DNA of 24,841 bases from a virus, in IMG/VR virus record IMGVR_UViG_3300002503_000027, positions 1-24,841 of that record, one strand, 5' to 3'. Position numbers and translations under genes: made by a program. Under the pieces are notes generated by a model that made no database searches, was not told the DNA's origin, and was given only the letters and a program-made list of their open reading frames with translations. This document shows, piece after piece, positions 14,094 through 23,084 of this stretch; position 1 is the stretch's first letter; every line of letters begins with the position of its first letter.

Positions 14094-14585
14094 TTACTTG
14101 TCCGTTAGTCGCCGTGCTTCAACAGAGACAAAGTCTACGAGAGCTTGCCGAAGCAACTGGACAGTTTCTGCGCGTAAGGATGCTGCGACAGCCTCAAGTT
14201 GACGATCAATGAGCCGATCTTCATCCTGTAGCTTCGCTAGCTGAATCTCGACGTCCGACTTTTGCCGCTGTGCATTCTGTTCTTCACCTACGAGAAATTT
14301 ATAGGTCACATCCTCAGCCAAACGCTGTCGTACCTCTGCCTCACGGGATTCCTTGTTTGAAAACGCAGGCTTGGCGCTGTCTGGTAACGTTTCAGCCGAT
14401 ACCAGTGACAACGTTTCAGCCTCACGATCCTTTACAAGACTAGAGGCTGACTCGAGATCAGCACGGAGATTGCTTAGGATGGCTCTCGTCTGGGCCAACC
14501 GATCAGGCATGGTGGACGCGACGAGACCGATGCGCTTCAACTCGGCAATCTGTTCAGCTACTGTATTCATCGCTACTGTATTCAT
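14094..14585 (-). CDS. Coiled-coil hypothetical protein (163 aa)
   Basis: The first ATG (14585) shares ATGA with the 46-aa ORF and has GGAG 9 bases upstream. It is followed by an exact tandem copy of its first codons (MNTVAMNTVA), so a second ATG lies 15 bases on without its own Shine-Dalgarno. The protein is nearly all helical and charged: residues 20-60 and 95-150 form likely coiled coils separated by a Ser/Pro stretch, with FSNKESREAEVRQRLAEDVT in the middle. Similar helical proteins lie next to recombination genes in other phages, but I know no function. Confidence 0.7.
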   Translation of the reverse strand: MNTVAMNTVAEQIAELKRIGLVASTMPDRLAQTRAILSNLRADLESASSLVKDREAETLSLVSAETLPDSAKPAFSNKESREAEVRQRLAEDVTYKFLVGEEQNAQRQKSDVEIQLAKLQDEDRLIDRQLEAVAASLRAETVQLLRQALVDFVSVEARRLTDK

Positions 14586-14722
14586 CTACCTCTGCTCCAA
14601 AAAAGAAGGCCCGGCGTGGTCGCAATGACCATCGCTTTCCTCTGCGAGAGGCGCACGATTTGTCCTATGGAGCTCGCAGCTGCACAGGTTTTGTCGTGCC
14701 TATAACGGGCCAAGGCCTTCAC
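14582..14722 (-). CDS. Small hypothetical protein (46 aa)
   Basis: The GTG at 14722 shares GTGA with the stop of the repeat protein, and the TGA at 14582-14584 shares ATGA with the next start, so it fills the gap exactly. The sequence begins MKALARYRHDKTCAAASSIG and ends VIATTPGLLFWSRGR, basic with a short hydrophobic run. No family is known to me. The exact double junction is the main evidence; an internal ATG with GAGGAAAG upstream would give only 16 residues. Confidence 0.5.
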   Translation of the reverse strand: MKALARYRHDKTCAAASSIGQIVRLSQRKAMVIATTPGLLFWSRGR

Positions 14723-15222
14723 GGCTCAAAGACTTCGCCAGTTTCTAGTTTGCACGCATAGCTATCCTTGCCTTCGCGGTACACCCATTCCACGCGGATA
14801 TTCCCGTGGGCCTCAAGAATGCCCTCAGCCCAGAGCTTGCCGCCCTCGGCTCGGAGCTTGCCGCCCTCGGCCCAGAGCTTGGCGCCCTCGGCCCGGAGCT
14901 TGTCGCCCTCGGCCCAGAGCTTGTCGCCCTCGGCCCGGAGCTTGTCGCCCTCGGCCCAGAGCTTGGCGCCCTCGGCCCAGAGCTTGTCGCCCTCGGCCCG
15001 GAGCTTGTCGCCCTCGGCCCGGAGCTTGGCGCCCTCGGCCCGGAGCTTGGCGCCCTCGGCCCGGAGCTTGGCGCCCTCGGCCCAGAGCTTGGCGCCCTCG
15101 GCCCGGAGCTTGTCGCCCTCGGCCCAGAGCCTGAGACGGATACCCCACACAAATGCAAGGCTAATGCTGCCGGCATTCTTCATTGCGGTGGAGTTGCTAC
15201 GCAGGCCCGTAGCATTCTTCAT
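14719..15222 (-). CDS. Heptapeptide-repeat protein (167 aa, 15 repeats)
   Basis: ATG at 15222 shares ATGA with the DUF1508-like gene's stop; the frame opens earlier (15378) but would overlap that gene. Residues 1-29 are a short leader, residues 30-134 are fifteen 7-residue units of the form K-L-[W/R]-A-E-G-[D/A/G], and residues 135-167 a conserved-looking tail (NIRVEWVYREGKDSYACKLE, ending GEVFEP). The period of seven with Leu and Ala at fixed places suggests an extended helical or solenoid rod. Proteins with this repeat exist in some phages and bacteria to my memory, without known function. Repeat number probably varies between relatives. Confidence 0.8.
   Translation of the reverse strand: MKNATGLRSNSTAMKNAGSISLAFVWGIRLRLWAEGDKLRAEGAKLWAEGAKLRAEGAKLRAEGAKLRAEGDKLRAEGDKLWAEGAKLWAEGDKLRAEGDKLWAEGDKLRAEGAKLWAEGGKLRAEGGKLWAEGILEAHGNIRVEWVYREGKDSYACKLETGEVFEP
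14821..15135 (-). repeat. 21-bp tandem array, 15 units
   Basis: Fifteen 21-base units (plus-strand form CCCTCGGCCCAGAGCTTGTCG) lie head to tail without spacers. Units differ at few positions: C/T-AG versus CCGG (Trp versus Arg) and GTC/GCG/CCG (Asp, Ala, Gly). Because the period is a multiple of three, several frames on both strands stay open and create false ORFs here. A CRISPR is excluded by the lack of spacers. Confidence 0.95.
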
Positions 15223-15434
15223 ACGATCACCCAGGCTGCCGTCCGTGCGGACGCTAGACTCTTGGCGGCACGCTTGGCATGTGTGCGCGTCGGATAGGCT
15301 TCGCTGACCATCCGAATCTGCCGGTTGCGCGAGATAAGGCGGATATAGTACTGAGCATCCTGACCTTTCCGGATCCACAGAATATGGCCCGTGAAACCCT
15401 TCGGGACGCCTGGAACGTGAAGTGATTTCGCCAT
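15219..15434 (-). CDS. DUF1508 (YegP)-like small protein (71 aa)
   Basis: ATG at 15434 follows the zinc-ribbon ORF stop by one base with GGAGG about 6 bases upstream. QYYIRLISRNRQIRMVSEAY followed by TRTHAKRAAKSLA matches the beta-beta-beta-alpha pattern of DUF1508 ('...F.L....G.....S..Y.....A...I..') where a strand, a turn and a helix of Lys/Ala residues follow. It is one copy of the repeat. The family's function is unknown. Confidence 0.55.
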   Translation of the reverse strand: MAKSLHVPGVPKGFTGHILWIRKGQDAQYYIRLISRNRQIRMVSEAYPTRTHAKRAAKSLASARTAAWVIV

Positions 15435-17279: not shown

Positions 17280-19082
17280 TTAGCCTCTTCCAAGTTCCTG
17301 CTCAGGGATCATGGACGATGGCGGACGTTGTTCGAGAAAGCCGACCGCACGATGTACATCCGTCTCTCCTGGTGGTGTCACCGGCGGCGTCCCTGGCGGT
17401 GTCCCTGGCGGTGGAGTCCCCGGCGGCGGGACCCCGGATGGGTTGGGTATAATCGGCTCTCCGGTGATCGTGCGACCTGTCAGGATGCCACCGGTCATCA
17501 TGCCGCGCCAGATTTCTACTTGGCCAACATTCCCAGGTCCCGCGTACAAGAGCGACACGATCGCGAGGATAGTTCCATCGTCGGCGAATGTTGTTTGGAC
17601 GACGGTCGGGTACACTGATGCATCGAGGGCAAACATACCGACTCGAGAGGTTGGCACAGACTTGACGAAATTCACCCCGTCCTTAGTCAAGAAAAACGGT
17701 GTCCATGTCGGGTCGACGAAATCGGTAGAGATATTACAACCTAAGAACGCAGCTTGACCACCGAGCGCAAGTAACGTACGTCCTTCATACCAATAATCAT
17801 TTGCGTCTGGCAACGGACTTGGCAATTCGTTGTTGAGACTAATATTTTCCCACGTCTCGGCCTTGTCTTCCGATCGCCAGATAACGGCATAATGGTATGC
17901 TGGACTGGTTTGATTGTTATTAGACACAGGATTCACAGCTGTCGGGGCACCGCCAGCACAGAGCACAGTTCCATCATCGAGCTCGCAGAAACAATGCGTC
18001 ATGACGTATAAACTGCTAAAGACAAACTGCCCCTTTTGGCCTTGCGGGATAAAGTTAAAGAAGTTTCCAGGCATGACAATCTCTTTAAACGTCCCTGGTG
18101 CTCCACGTGCGGTACTCTTGAAAATACACGGAGATAATCCCGTGACATTGACACCGAGGAGCAGTGTGTCATGGTCGCTGAGAAAGAACGCTTCACCACA
18201 GGAATTAATGCCGATGCCTTGCATACGTCCACTACCAATAACTTCCGACGTATCTCCGTACGGCCGCCAGATTACGCCGTCGTGTGACGCAATCATATAA
18301 AAATAGGAGTCTGCCATGAGCCCAGGGATAGTGCCGGAGAGAGTCGAACTTCCAATCAGGGGCGGTTCAGTGACCCATATCCAGCTGATACTTCCATCCG
18401 GATTGATACTTTGTGCATAGGCGGCTCCAGGTTCGAGTTCATTCAGTATGAATGCAGTCGTTAATGACGTTGCACCAGCTTGTGACAGTTGGAGAAGTAA
18501 TTGACCGTGGATCACTGGATCGGGGCCGAACATTTCATATTGGAACAACCCCGGCCAGACGGCAAATTTCCGCGTTGCCACATCCCTCCGTCCGTTCATG
18601 CTAGGCCGGCCAAATTGTGACCACCCGGTCAATAAGAAAATCGGCGTTCCAGGTCCGACGTCACGATTTTGATGAGCCCGAATGATACCGCCGGCATCGC
18701 CGGAAGAAGGACCTTTTCCGTCTTCAGCATGCAGCCAGTCACTTGGCTTGTAACACAGTAACCCAGCGCCCATACTAAACACATCCTCTCCGGAAACCCC
18801 AAGTTCCGAAAACATAGCTAAGCCTGAAGTGCGCTGCCAGGAGCCTGGTTTACCGTCATCATTGGAAGCCCAGACTTCACCGCGTTTTAAGGAAGAGAAC
18901 GGAAGGCTATACGTAGCGCCAACCACCGCAACCATACGTCCTCCACCGATATTACTGATTCCCGATGCGGTATCGTGTCCAGGAATCGTAGCAGCAAGTG
19001 CCCAATCAATGGCAAGCGGTGTTTGCAAAGCGATCGCCAACGCTTCACCGATTGCGGATACATCTGATACTACGATGGACAT
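17280..19082 (-). CDS. Asp-box beta-propeller-like tail protein (600 aa)
   Basis: ATG at 19082 with GAGGA upstream. Several Asp-box-like hairpins (S.D.G..W) appear: SNDDGKPGSW (73-82), SHDGVIW (266-272), SEDKAETW (404-411) and TKDGVNF (466-472). These mark sialidase/BNR-type beta-propellers and suggest a surface or sugar-binding blade structure of about 500 residues. No sialidase Arg triad or F/YRIP motif could be identified, so binding rather than cutting is my inference. Residues 548-574 form a proline/glycine linker (PPPGTPPPGTPPGT...) and a short basic/acidic tail follows. It lies after the tail hub and is a good candidate for a receptor-binding protein. Confidence 0.75.
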   Translation of the reverse strand: MSIVVSDVSAIGEALAIALQTPLAIDWALAATIPGHDTASGISNIGGGRMVAVVGATYSLPFSSLKRGEVWASNDDGKPGSWQRTSGLAMFSELGVSGEDVFSMGAGLLCYKPSDWLHAEDGKGPSSGDAGGIIRAHQNRDVGPGTPIFLLTGWSQFGRPSMNGRRDVATRKFAVWPGLFQYEMFGPDPVIHGQLLLQLSQAGATSLTTAFILNELEPGAAYAQSINPDGSISWIWVTEPPLIGSSTLSGTIPGLMADSYFYMIASHDGVIWRPYGDTSEVIGSGRMQGIGINSCGEAFFLSDHDTLLLGVNVTGLSPCIFKSTARGAPGTFKEIVMPGNFFNFIPQGQKGQFVFSSLYVMTHCFCELDDGTVLCAGGAPTAVNPVSNNNQTSPAYHYAVIWRSEDKAETWENISLNNELPSPLPDANDYWYEGRTLLALGGQAAFLGCNISTDFVDPTWTPFFLTKDGVNFVKSVPTSRVGMFALDASVYPTVVQTTFADDGTILAIVSLLYAGPGNVGQVEIWRGMMTGGILTGRTITGEPIIPNPSGVPPPGTPPPGTPPGTPPVTPPGETDVHRAVGFLEQRPPSSMIPEQELGRG

Positions 19083-19394: not shown

Positions 19395-22300
19395 TTACCC
19401 CCTAACTATTGTAACCTTTTCAAATGTCTGTCCTTCTGGATTGAAAGTAAGGTTAATGTCGTCAGAAACAGTAATGACATTGCTACTGATCGCTGCAATA
19501 TCGTCCGACTGAATGTCTTCAGCGACAAAGATCGAAAGGCCGGTTGACTCAATGCGCTCAACCACGTCGTATTCCGCGATATAATCCGTGACGTTGATGA
19601 AGCACGCGTTGATCTGTACCGTGACGTAGTCCCAGACGTCTTGGTAGTCTCGTGCAATGGCTTGCCGCCCCTGGATTATCACATCGACGAGTTCGGTCAC
19701 CGGATTGTCATCGAACACATTTCCTGTTGCAAAGCCAAATGCGAAGGCGACACTATCCGTTACACTAAGATCGTCGTAGACCGCCGCCCACCGTGGCGTG
19801 AGATCTTCCTCGAGATTAAAGACCGTAATATAGTTCGGTTCGCCGAGGCGATTGGTGAGGGATTGAGTTTGAATCTTGAACGTGATTATGCGCGCACCAA
19901 ACGGTGGATTGTCAGTCATGTTCTTGAAAATCGTGTATTCGTACGCGGCAATCTTGACGAATTCCTCTCGCACGGTAACGTCGTTGACAATCACCGTGAC
20001 CCAGTACCCGGCAACCGTTGAACCAGTCAGGTTTTCCTCATCTTGACTAGTGAAAAAGAGTTCTGAGTTCGCGTGCCAGTGCAAGATAACATCGCAGCCG
20101 ACAAATTCCTGGTCAAGACGTTGCCCTGGAATTTCAAGGCCACCAGGACGTGGAATAGCGATGCTGCCGAATGGTGTACCTCCTGGCGGTGTCCCTCCTG
20201 GCGGCGGTGGAGGATTCCATGTACCTGGAGGTGGTCCAGTACCAGGCGGCGGTGCCGGCGGCGGACTGCCAGGTGGCGTACCAGGTGGTGTATCAATCGG
20301 GAGTACTCCTGGTGTATACACGTAGATCGATTGATCCCAGCCGACGACTACCACTTGGATGCTTTCTCGCCGTTTCTGTACCTGGCGAATCTCAACGATG
20401 TCGTTAGCATAGCCACACGGGGTATAGAATACGCGAACAAGATTTCCCTCAATGAGGCGGCGTGCTTCCTGAGTGACTTCAAAATCACATGTAACTTGGC
20501 CATAGAATTCGCGCTTCGCCAAGTAGTCTGTGACCTTATCCGCCGTGACGTGATCCCAAATAAATGGGGCGTCGAGAGATTTCTCTTTTCCAATGCCGGT
20601 GACCACGCGTGTCTGTTTGGAGAGATAGGTATCCTTTGTCCCATCAAGACGATAATTGACGATATAGGTCGAGATCGCATTCTTCGAATCAACGATAGCC
20701 TTTTTCCCGGCTTTCAGAATATTTCGCTCTCCATCACCAGTCCCGTCGCGGATCTGCATTGAAATGACGGCTGGTGCGGTATCTGCTGCCAGGGTAATGA
20801 GTCCGGAGGCATTGAATCCCAGACGCATTCCGCGTACAATCATAAGGCTATTCAGCACAGCTTGGGCTTGGAGTTTCGTATTCAGGAATCCATCACACAG
20901 TAATCCAAGATCTTCGAGCGCCTGCGCAACATCACCGAACGAAATAAGGTCAACGAGGTGATTGAGTCCCCATTCACTATTGGTAATGACTTCCTCAATG
21001 GCATCAGCAAAGTTCCGGCTACTCGAGGATGCGTCAGCATAGATCTGATGAAAGTTATTGCTAAAATCCCGTTGCCTGATCGGGAAACGCACACATGTAT
21101 TCCCGGGGTACCGATCCGTCGAGATCAGATATTCTGAGGTCTCTATCAGTTCAAGTGATCCGTCTGGTTTATTGCGGTAGAGCGCATTGATCGTTAGATT
21201 CCCAGCAAGGACATATTCATAAATGTTCTCTGTCACGCCGTCGTACACGTACACCATGGGAACCGCTTTCGCATCGCCAAAGACAACGGGAATCACTTTG
21301 CCGACGTCTGGACCGCCGACAGACCACGGGAAATCTCGGATGTTAACGTCTTTCTTTGGTATCTCCTGCTCGAAAAGTTCGAGCGCTGGACTTTCTGCGG
21401 TAATAATAATTTCACCGTCGCCCAACGCAACACTGCTAATCTTGGCCCAGAGAGCCTCAACCGTCACACCGGAGGCAATATCATATCGCTGGATGGTAAT
21501 CGGCTGGTCACGGAGATTGTGTGTAAACAGATTCGTGAGATATCCATCGGCATTCGCCAGCGAGAACGAGACGGTCGAGACCTGCGTGAACCCCCAAAAT
21601 GTATCCATGAGTTGACGATCAATGATCGGATCATCAAGGATGCGACCGTTATAGGGCGGATACTGTTCGATATCGACGTTGGAGAATTTGAGTTCAGCAG
21701 ACGTATACGGTGCTGGGATAATGGTGATTTGCGACATATCAATGAGCCAGACAGGTCGCCAGACTGCAGTGGGTGCTCCGCCACCTGTGCCGCCCTGTGT
21801 ATCCTGGAGCGTGAGGGCAAAGACTTGCCAGCTTTCAGTCGTGTTGGCATCATCAAACACATCAATCTGAAGATTGGAGAATGCCAGCGTTACTGAATCC
21901 GTGACATCAATAGTATCTAATGCGTAGGGTGTTCCTGGATTGAAGGCAAGAGCAACGGATTCCGTGATCGTCGGAACATCGATCAGGAGAACAGCTGGAC
22001 CTACAGGGACAGCCGGTAGTTGAACGGATGCGACATCTGTTATACTTGCTATATCGGCTGCAGTAATCGAGGTGCCGATAACGGCTGTTCCAAATGCCAC
22101 GGATTCTGTGGTAACAATATCGTCCGATGTAAACAACAATACCGTGGCTGTCGCTATTTGTACGTCATCTGTAGAGATATTCGAGTCCACTACCAATAGG
22201 GCGAGAGATACAGATACGTCCGCGTTGTCTACGACATCATCATCATCGTGAGTTTTTATCTCACCCTGAGCAGCCAATGTTAAACTGATGTCTTCCGTAC

Positions 22301-23084
22301 CAAGTACGTCATCAAATACAGATATGCCTGGTACTACAATATTCGGCGTGAAAAACCTTTTCGATAGAGATTTAGGAGCGCACAGCGTGTTGTATGGATC
22401 AAGCAGAATATCCTGTAAAACTTGTACCGGCATTTGTGAACGGTGGATCCAGACCCAATAATAATTTGCGAGATCACTGGTACTTCCAGTTGGGTGAATG
22501 CCCAACCGAAACGCTGAAGCTGAAGCCGTCCTCGTAGGATTACTGCTATTGGCTGCGCGGAGTATGCTATCCTGCCAGATTTCCATACCACGCGGCCCGC
22601 TGGTGAATGCCCAGGTATGATAATCAGAGGTAGTCAGTCCAGCGATACTCAGCCGCGTGGTACCTTCGACAACACCGCCGAAATCCCAATAGACCTTGCC
22701 ATCCGTATACGGAAGATGAACGCCACACCGTTCTGCATTGGTACTACCAGTACCGAACGCACCACTATTACGAAGCGTGGCATCTCGTTTTTCATAACCG
22801 AGACACACCGTAATCTCTTGCGTAGGAACGATACTCGCTGCAATAGCTGCAGCGAACAGATCAGATCGAGCAGTCGTTGCTGTGTGAGACAGCATTGTGC
22901 CGCGAGAACCTACGCCAGCGGTTCGTGTGCCTGTGACAGCCCCAAATTCCTCGCGTAGGATATTGCGAATACCAAGACCTTCATTCATGAGCCACAGGCC
23001 GAGTGTTCCCGCGGGAAGGCTGTGATTCAGCCCAATACCGAGTGGGGGTTTCTCAGTCCAACGCTTGCTTCCGATAACGAGCAC
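19395..23084 (-). CDS. Modular tail hub / tip protein (1229 aa)
   Basis: Starts with GTG at 23084. Domains in order: LamG/concanavalin-like jelly roll (20-245; LPAGTLGLWLMNEG, a concanavalin-like start, and YYWVWIHRS); a first block of about 30-residue repeats with T-E/D-S-V (255-425; DIVTTESVAFG, TITESVALAFN, DVTDSVTLAFS); a hub core (440-925) with the beta-rich start of gp27/gpJ-like tail hubs and a helical insertion (FADAIEEVI..LISFGDVAQALEDLGLL); a proline-rich linker (930-975); an FN3-like domain (985-1095); and a second repeat block (1098-1225; DDLSVTDSVAFAF). It is the third tail gene after the tape measure, the usual hub position. It likely closes the tail tip and displays sugar-binding parts. 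Hub assignment is good, individual outer domains moderate. Confidence 0.82.
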   Translation of the reverse strand: MLVIGSKRWTEKPPLGIGLNHSLPAGTLGLWLMNEGLGIRNILREEFGAVTGTRTAGVGSRGTMLSHTATTARSDLFAAAIAASIVPTQEITVCLGYEKRDATLRNSGAFGTGSTNAERCGVHLPYTDGKVYWDFGGVVEGTTRLSIAGLTTSDYHTWAFTSGPRGMEIWQDSILRAANSSNPTRTASASAFRLGIHPTGSTSDLANYYWVWIHRSQMPVQVLQDILLDPYNTLCAPKSLSKRFFTPNIVVPGISVFDDVLGTEDISLTLAAQGEIKTHDDDDVVDNADVSVSLALLVVDSNISTDDVQIATATVLLFTSDDIVTTESVAFGTAVIGTSITAADIASITDVASVQLPAVPVGPAVLLIDVPTITESVALAFNPGTPYALDTIDVTDSVTLAFSNLQIDVFDDANTTESWQVFALTLQDTQGGTGGGAPTAVWRPVWLIDMSQITIIPAPYTSAELKFSNVDIEQYPPYNGRILDDPIIDRQLMDTFWGFTQVSTVSFSLANADGYLTNLFTHNLRDQPITIQRYDIASGVTVEALWAKISSVALGDGEIIITAESPALELFEQEIPKKDVNIRDFPWSVGGPDVGKVIPVVFGDAKAVPMVYVYDGVTENIYEYVLAGNLTINALYRNKPDGSLELIETSEYLISTDRYPGNTCVRFPIRQRDFSNNFHQIYADASSSSRNFADAIEEVITNSEWGLNHLVDLISFGDVAQALEDLGLLCDGFLNTKLQAQAVLNSLMIVRGMRLGFNASGLITLAADTAPAVISMQIRDGTGDGERNILKAGKKAIVDSKNAISTYIVNYRLDGTKDTYLSKQTRVVTGIGKEKSLDAPFIWDHVTADKVTDYLAKREFYGQVTCDFEVTQEARRLIEGNLVRVFYTPCGYANDIVEIRQVQKRRESIQVVVVGWDQSIYVYTPGVLPIDTPPGTPPGSPPPAPPPGTGPPPGTWNPPPPPGGTPPGGTPFGSIAIPRPGGLEIPGQRLDQEFVGCDVILHWHANSELFFTSQDEENLTGSTVAGYWVTVIVNDVTVREEFVKIAAYEYTIFKNMTDNPPFGARIITFKIQTQSLTNRLGEPNYITVFNLEEDLTPRWAAVYDDLSVTDSVAFAFGFATGNVFDDNPVTELVDVIIQGRQAIARDYQDVWDYVTVQINACFINVTDYIAEYDVVERIESTGLSIFVAEDIQSDDIAAISSNVITVSDDINLTFNPEGQTFEKVTIVRG

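Follow-up and report, generated by a model that had tools for sequence, protein, structure and literature searches.

In TAL effectors, nearly identical DNA repeats encode units of about 34 residues that follow DNA and that differ at two variable residues per unit, and phages are known to diversify their proteins through retroelements and tail-fibre exchange. In fungal NOD-like receptors, such as HET-D and HET-E of Podospora with their WD40 repeats, the HIC repeats combine concerted evolution with a few hypervariable codons under diversifying selection, which mark the predicted ligand surface (PMC12222747). Among viral proteins, VP2 of SH1/HCIV-1, a virion vertex protein, carries many heptapeptide repeats between conserved flanks (PMC4958249), and Ea22 of phage lambda, encoded in the early/recombination region, has a short N-terminal domain, a coiled coil and a small C-terminal alpha-beta domain (PMC10834534). 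The window analysed here (the whole 24,841-nucleotide stretch of IMG/VR record IMGVR_UViG_3300002503_000027) encodes a protein built on a heptad array, for which the HIC WD40 repeats of Podospora NLRs are the closest evolutionary parallel and VP2 of SH1/HCIV-1 is the closest viral look-alike.

The HIC repeats and the phage array have in common that their units are maintained near-identical through concerted evolution while a few codons in each unit are hypervariable; polymorphism in length is a further possible likeness. They differ in that the HIC units are WD40 blades with four variable codons each, whereas those of the phage are 7-residue helical units with two, and in that the phage protein, unlike the HIC receptors, is small (167 aa) and without effector or nucleotide-binding domains, no effector, nucleotide-binding or WD40 Pfam match being found in it at E<=0.1, unlike in HNWD receptors. 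The phage protein resembles VP2 in having many heptapeptides between conserved flanks, but the VP2 consensus is DXAARGY and that of the phage family GxKLxAE (308 counted units), and the phage gene sits among DNA-metabolism genes. With Ea22 the likeness is one of genome region and architecture only, and Ea22 is not described as a homogenised 21-bp array. TAL effector repeats share with the phage array the two variable residues per unit, although a 7-residue helical unit could not track the groove likewise; to our knowledge, no unit shorter than 7 residues has been described for recognition-type repeats of this kind.

The heptad-array gene is complete (positions 14719..15222 of the window, minus strand) and its translation is 167 aa long, or 154 aa if the second ATG, at 15183, starts it. 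Its first part (15133..15222, minus strand) is an N-terminal cap with the conserved residues W26 and R29 (SLAFVWGIRL), supported by conservation in alignment A1, where both residues are conserved to at least 90%, and by pLDDT. This is followed by an array of 15 x 21 bp (14818..15132, minus strand), i.e., 15 in-frame heptads G-x2-K-L-x5-A-E spanning 315 bp, where x5 is W or R and x2 is D, A or G, predicted to be helical throughout, and by the C-terminal domain LEAHGNIRVEWVYREGKDSYACKLETGEVFEP with the stop codon (14719..14817, minus strand), predicted to form a helix end and a two-stranded beta hairpin and containing G, W, C and G residues that are invariant in alignment A2. An initial annotation of this DNA had described fifteen near-identical heptapeptides on a 21-bp array, which is borne out by the translation and by TRF, the latter giving a 21-bp period at 14821-15130 (14.8 copies, 93% matches, 0% indels, score 501), no other tandem repeat of the window being as strong. 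The short leader and GEVFEP tail that were said to frame the array are present, but as parts of conserved family end modules.

Position 5 of the heptads is W in seven units and R in eight, and position 2 is D in six, A in six and G in two; the earlier statement that units vary only at these places holds, save for the I in the last unit, which runs into the C-terminal domain, and two synonymous changes (one CGA, one GCT). Third-base diversity between the window units is 0.027, against 0.636 expected from the codon usage of the same phage, and the regularity of the array is far beyond chance. The order of W and R units had been described as non-random-looking and a possible record of duplication history, but in the window array 11 runs are observed vs 8.4 expected (P=0.13), which does not demonstrate a non-random order. 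Across the arrays of the family the autocorrelation of position 5 remains at |z|<1 at lags 1-6; unit order is random and a duplication history is not detectable in it.

IMG/VR was scanned with the window protein and with alignments built from its relatives, and the same architecture was found to be encoded on about 50 viral contigs, which means that the window array is no isolated case. A typical member has an N-cap ending in W..R.KL, then n heptads and then a C-terminal domain AIIEvYGNIkLEWknw…YeChLEnGEVykP, in which G, W and C are near-invariant across the family (GNIxxEW…CxLETGEVF in the short form). The comparison of repeat number among relatives, which had been proposed earlier, shows that it is not identical: members have from 0 to about 21 heptads (two in L095, three in L029 and about 21 in L008), these copy numbers being provisional and nearly all of the data coming from metagenome contigs. 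About ten contigs end inside the array, showing that assembly of arrays is difficult. The member with no heptads is a 62-aa ORF (L125:2935-3123) of a complete podovirus genome from Manatee Spring (MW202524), which keeps both family ends and overlaps each of its neighbours by 4 bp; like the members with two and three heptads, it shows that some role of the family can do without the array.

In several phages (L008, L010 and L013) a single genome has between two and five paralogues, their arrays unequal in length, and in the clusters of three to five paralogues at L010 4977-10108 and L008 4383-6922 the ends are near-identical and the arrays very different. In L021 and L038 the ends are intact and the internal heptads have diverged, constituting decayed arrays. 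A variant array, KL(R/W)DEGA, is found at L017 4995-5378, with Asp in most units at position 6, Ala in all of them at position 2 and still R or W at position 5. At L032 160-519 an N-cap with two heptads continues in frame into an unrelated C-terminal region, as a deletion or a misassembly would leave it. Dispersed EGxKL-type heptad proteins of a large phage (L097, L098 and L102, on the 121-kb contig 3300014884_000001) have a different C-terminus (EELIRLFGFIPDFM) and perhaps represent a sister family. Within a Patescibacteria MAG, the 6-kb contig L107 (LCET01000018.1, labelled Candidatus Woesebacteria) has at least two tandem copies of the family; it is possibly a phage contig and a pointer to the host group.

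Most of the other matches in genome contigs (L106 and L108-L124) were rejected as having the appearance of unrelated coiled coils or chance KLKAEG-type repeats, only L107 looking like the family, and plasmid matches were rejected as weak repeat matches. No Pfam or PHROG family describes the array protein, the matches listed being short coiled-coil or repeat matches; a match to Pfam TubC_N (PF18563) is spurious, its 35 bits being summed over the repeats, with a best stretch of 18 residues and no stretch passing alone. A sequence search of the PDB returned only generic coiled coils as relatives, and a literature search with motif strings of the heptad array found nothing.

Units were compared within and between arrays in a set of 44 arrays comprising 415 canonical units. 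At the third bases of the five fixed codons diversity is 0.085 within arrays and 0.491 between them, whereas at the first two bases of the two variable codons it is 0.410 within and 0.502 between, and variable-codon diversity exceeds synonymous diversity in 44/44 arrays. The per-base ratio of within- to between-array diversity is 0.07-0.14 for the third bases of the K, L, A and E codons, and 0.42 for that of G; the variable codons give 0.70-0.89 at their first two bases. When one array per contig is taken, position 5 lies above the synonymous value in 33/35 and position 2 in 34/35. Codon bias was rejected as the source of the homogeneous synonymous sites, their diversity being 0.083 vs 0.590 expected from the codon usage of the flanking genes of each phage, with 41/41 arrays below expectation. 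The phage units are thus more alike within than between genes, as in the HIC repeats, and raw diversity (0.41 vs 0.085) likewise has the HIC-type excess of nonsynonymous diversity at a few codons per unit.

Units of one array that agree in a residue use a different codon for it in only 5.8% (position 5) and 0.5% (position 2) of cases, whereas between arrays the figures are 65% and 38%; equal residues share a codon inside an array, which indicates that unit types were copied and not recurrently mutated. The units of an array are copied over each other as DNA, i.e., they undergo concerted evolution, and the suggestion of recent expansion or gene conversion made in the initial annotation agrees with this synonymous homogenisation within arrays but not between phages (41/41), and with the spread in copy number. 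Despite the homogenisation, diversity persists at two codons of each heptad, those of positions 2 and 5, and no unit type takes over, a point which the earlier description missed although it recognised the two variable places. Since neutral homogenisation should treat synonymous and variable codons alike, the simplest account of the sequences would be selection for diversity at positions 2 and 5. Because identical units collapse during assembly, arrays whose units differ are favoured, and this may inflate the generality of the heterogeneity, but it cannot create the contrast between synonymous and nonsynonymous sites. A DNA- or RNA-level element was considered and is unlikely, the fixed residues being kept through synonymous change between phages.

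Two other origins of the diversity have to be weighed against selection. Neutral expansion of a tolerant helix, with positions 2 and 5 merely unconstrained, would fit the free length, the zero- and few-unit members and the decayed arrays of L021 and L038, but unconstrained codons should homogenise like synonymous sites and are about five times more diverse, and position 5 is limited to few residue types, which makes this explanation improbable. Targeted mutagenesis of two codons per unit, by a diversity-generating retroelement or similar, is suggested by codons with a constant third base and changing first and second bases (NNT-like in L008); however, the PF00078 reverse-transcriptase domain was found in 0/26 records (linear and maybe incomplete), whereas control genomes gave matches to it, the position 5 codons are mainly C/T-first and not adenine-derived, and the sharing of codons by equal residues inside an array is the signature of copying. 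We consider this mechanism very improbable.

Contig 3300038462_000024 carries the gene at both ends (L005 and L018), with identical leader and C-terminal domain and arrays of 14 vs 9 units, and where the two arrays have units in common, most of the differences fall at positions 2 and 5. The pair could be two alleles of one population, an assembly fault also being possible.

AlphaFold2 run on alignment A1 gave a mean pLDDT of 89.7 (about 54 for residues 1-20 and about 95 from residue 21), with helices at 22-76 and 79-139 and strands at 144-148 and 155-159. The model of the two-heptad member L095 (pLDDT 90.8) has two helices and a beta hairpin, matching the C-terminal elements of the window protein; the core alignment used for folding was built without the row from a public phage record. 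With the whole model, Foldseek returned only generic helical structures and hairpins (Smc, iSH2), none of them significant (E>0.05), a comparison with viral structure models gave no significant fold match to the array protein, and the minimal member or core model (L095) had no clear PDB match (best Z 4.1), an absence which proves nothing. The protein may fold as a helical hairpin holding the N-cap near the C-terminal domain at any array length, though a monomer model of a repetitive sequence is weak evidence for a hairpin.

Position 5 is restricted to a few residue types. It is Arg (33%), Trp (29%) or Tyr (20%) in 83% of units, C accounting for 7% and H for 4%; there are essentially no acidic or small residues and, apart from one Leu, no aliphatic ones, and both cationic and aromatic residues occur there in 41/42 arrays. 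At position 2, D makes up 41%, S 15%, N 14%, A 7% and G 7%. Between the variable codons only weak linkage is seen, at distances of 9-12 bp. Arg, Trp and Tyr are classic interface hot-spot residues. On a helical wheel with a turn of 100 degrees from one residue to the next, position 5 falls at 40 degrees and position 2 at 100, in the sector bounded by Gly (0) and Ala (140), and away from Lys/Glu (200-240) and Leu (300), so each heptad would expose one large, variable side chain, with the neighbouring one beside it, above a platform of small residues.

The same composition could arise in a self-assembling coiled coil that needs a balanced mixture of residues and serves as a stalk, scaffold or oligomer organiser with no outside partner, which is the main rival explanation and one we hold to be possible though unlikely. 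Gly and Leu would then form the a/d core, with position 5 at e and position 2 at b, and the mixture would be selected because a homogeneous array, all Trp or all Arg, would aggregate or repel. The mixture of cationic and aromatic residues in nearly all arrays, the random unit order, the placing of position 5 at e with a fixed Glu at g, a weak excess of cation-acid pairs at i,i+4 (z=2.4) and the loose resemblance of the model helices to the Smc and iSH2 coiled-coil hairpins all speak for it. Yet position 2 is as variable as position 5 though solvent-exposed in such an arrangement, the array halves have no mirrored, antiparallel complementarity (|z|<2 at every shift), and c and f (K, A), usually free surface positions, are invariant, which a plain coiled coil does not need.

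Genes were called by a simple longest-ORF rule around 40-odd loci and 118 neighbours were scanned as a group. The commonest PHROG families among them are helicases, DNA methyltransferases, ParB-like proteins, RecT/Bet/Sak4 annealing proteins, exonuclease, DnaB, primase, NinB and RusA, with no virion protein in the 25 commonest, and many of the 118 are without a family match; a Pfam scan was concordant, except for one lysozyme match and one M23 peptidase match. Gene and adjacent gene share a strand in 79/93 cases. Neighbour families and strand together indicate that the gene sits in the early/recombination part of varied phages, and from this context we infer early expression of the array protein.

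This context also bears on whether the protein could be a virion fibre, ruler or tail-spike stalk, like the SH1-type heptapeptide proteins, an idea encouraged by the repeat layout of VP2 and by tblastn matches to tail spike and tail fibre proteins, which are weak (36-39% identity, E 3e-4 to 6e-4). The identifiable neighbours are, however, DNA-metabolism genes (0/25 of the commonest families virion), array length varies among relatives and the tail fibre matches are confined to the heptads, making a virion role improbable. The rod or ruler proposed earlier is, if of fixed length, similarly unlikely, the length going down to zero heptads among neighbours that are not tail genes. Tail-fibre identity itself was rejected on the heptad-only matches and the wrong gene context.

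The reading that we favour, and to which we give about an even chance, is that of a helical early protein whose heptads each bear a variable two-residue putative binding patch diversified by selection. Such a protein, encoded in the phage early region, would join an N-cap to a small C-terminal domain through an alpha-helical heptad array able to expand, in which positions 5 and 2 would be neighbours on the helix (i,i+3 inside a unit and i,i+4 across units), flanked by the fixed Gly and Ala. Each heptad would contribute one variable two-residue patch and the array a long interaction face, with side chains reshuffled and diversified by selection, probably because early in infection it binds a partner that itself changes, either a host protein or one of a rival element. 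A conserved pattern of variable residues was not found across arrays, which counts against this explanation because a fixed target would require one. The members with zero, two or three heptads likewise speak against it, as does L017 with its invariant Ala at position 2. A length-variable binding protein was among the functions suggested in the initial annotation, and of this the variable length is observed among relatives whereas the binding is predicted from sequence; as a whole, that earlier interpretation is supported as regards expansion or conversion and not as regards order history or a fixed ruler.

A more specific proposal, tentative and rather doubtful, is that of a modular recognition array, whose units would be copied, deleted and reshuffled by 21-bp recombination, allowing the specificity of an early anti-host or anti-defence protein to be rapidly rewritten without a reverse transcriptase. 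This widespread unnamed family bears the evolutionary mark of recognition repeats (a copied frame with two diverse codons) in an apparent early-region protein, and if the array binds host or defence proteins an arms race could be read from its sequences, and its seven-residue binding modules would make a simple scaffold supplied by nature. The existence of zero-unit and many-unit relatives makes the role of the array directly testable.

Within the window, the start of the array gene at 15222 overlaps the stop of an upstream 71-aa gene (15219..15434, minus strand; sub-threshold DUF1508/SPOR-like and phrog_1422 matches) by 4 bp as ATGA, an overlap which suggests that the two genes are probably translationally coupled. 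Initiation at the in-frame ATG at 15183 would make the N-terminus more like those of the relatives; the start is therefore either 15222 or 15183, the exact choice between them being uncertain, and the first 13 residues form a poorly conserved leader that is possibly not translated. The array gene begins MKNA...MKNA (15172-15222), with ATGAAGAATGC at both 15222 and 15183, and a duplicated start is also seen in the downstream gene (14094..14585, minus strand; 163 aa, without a convincing family match), which begins MNTVAMNTVA through a perfect 15-bp duplication (14557-14586). In the 24.8-kb window, DnaB-like helicase/primase, SbcC/SbcD-like and HNH genes lie on one side of the array gene, and large genes with few or no family matches, presumably structural, on the other. 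Two large minus-strand proteins (17280-19082 and 19395-23084) without PHROG matches both contain Pro/Gly-rich linker repeats of the PPGTPPG type, which correspond to 12-bp and 15-bp tandem repeats near 17368-17413 and 20173-20204.
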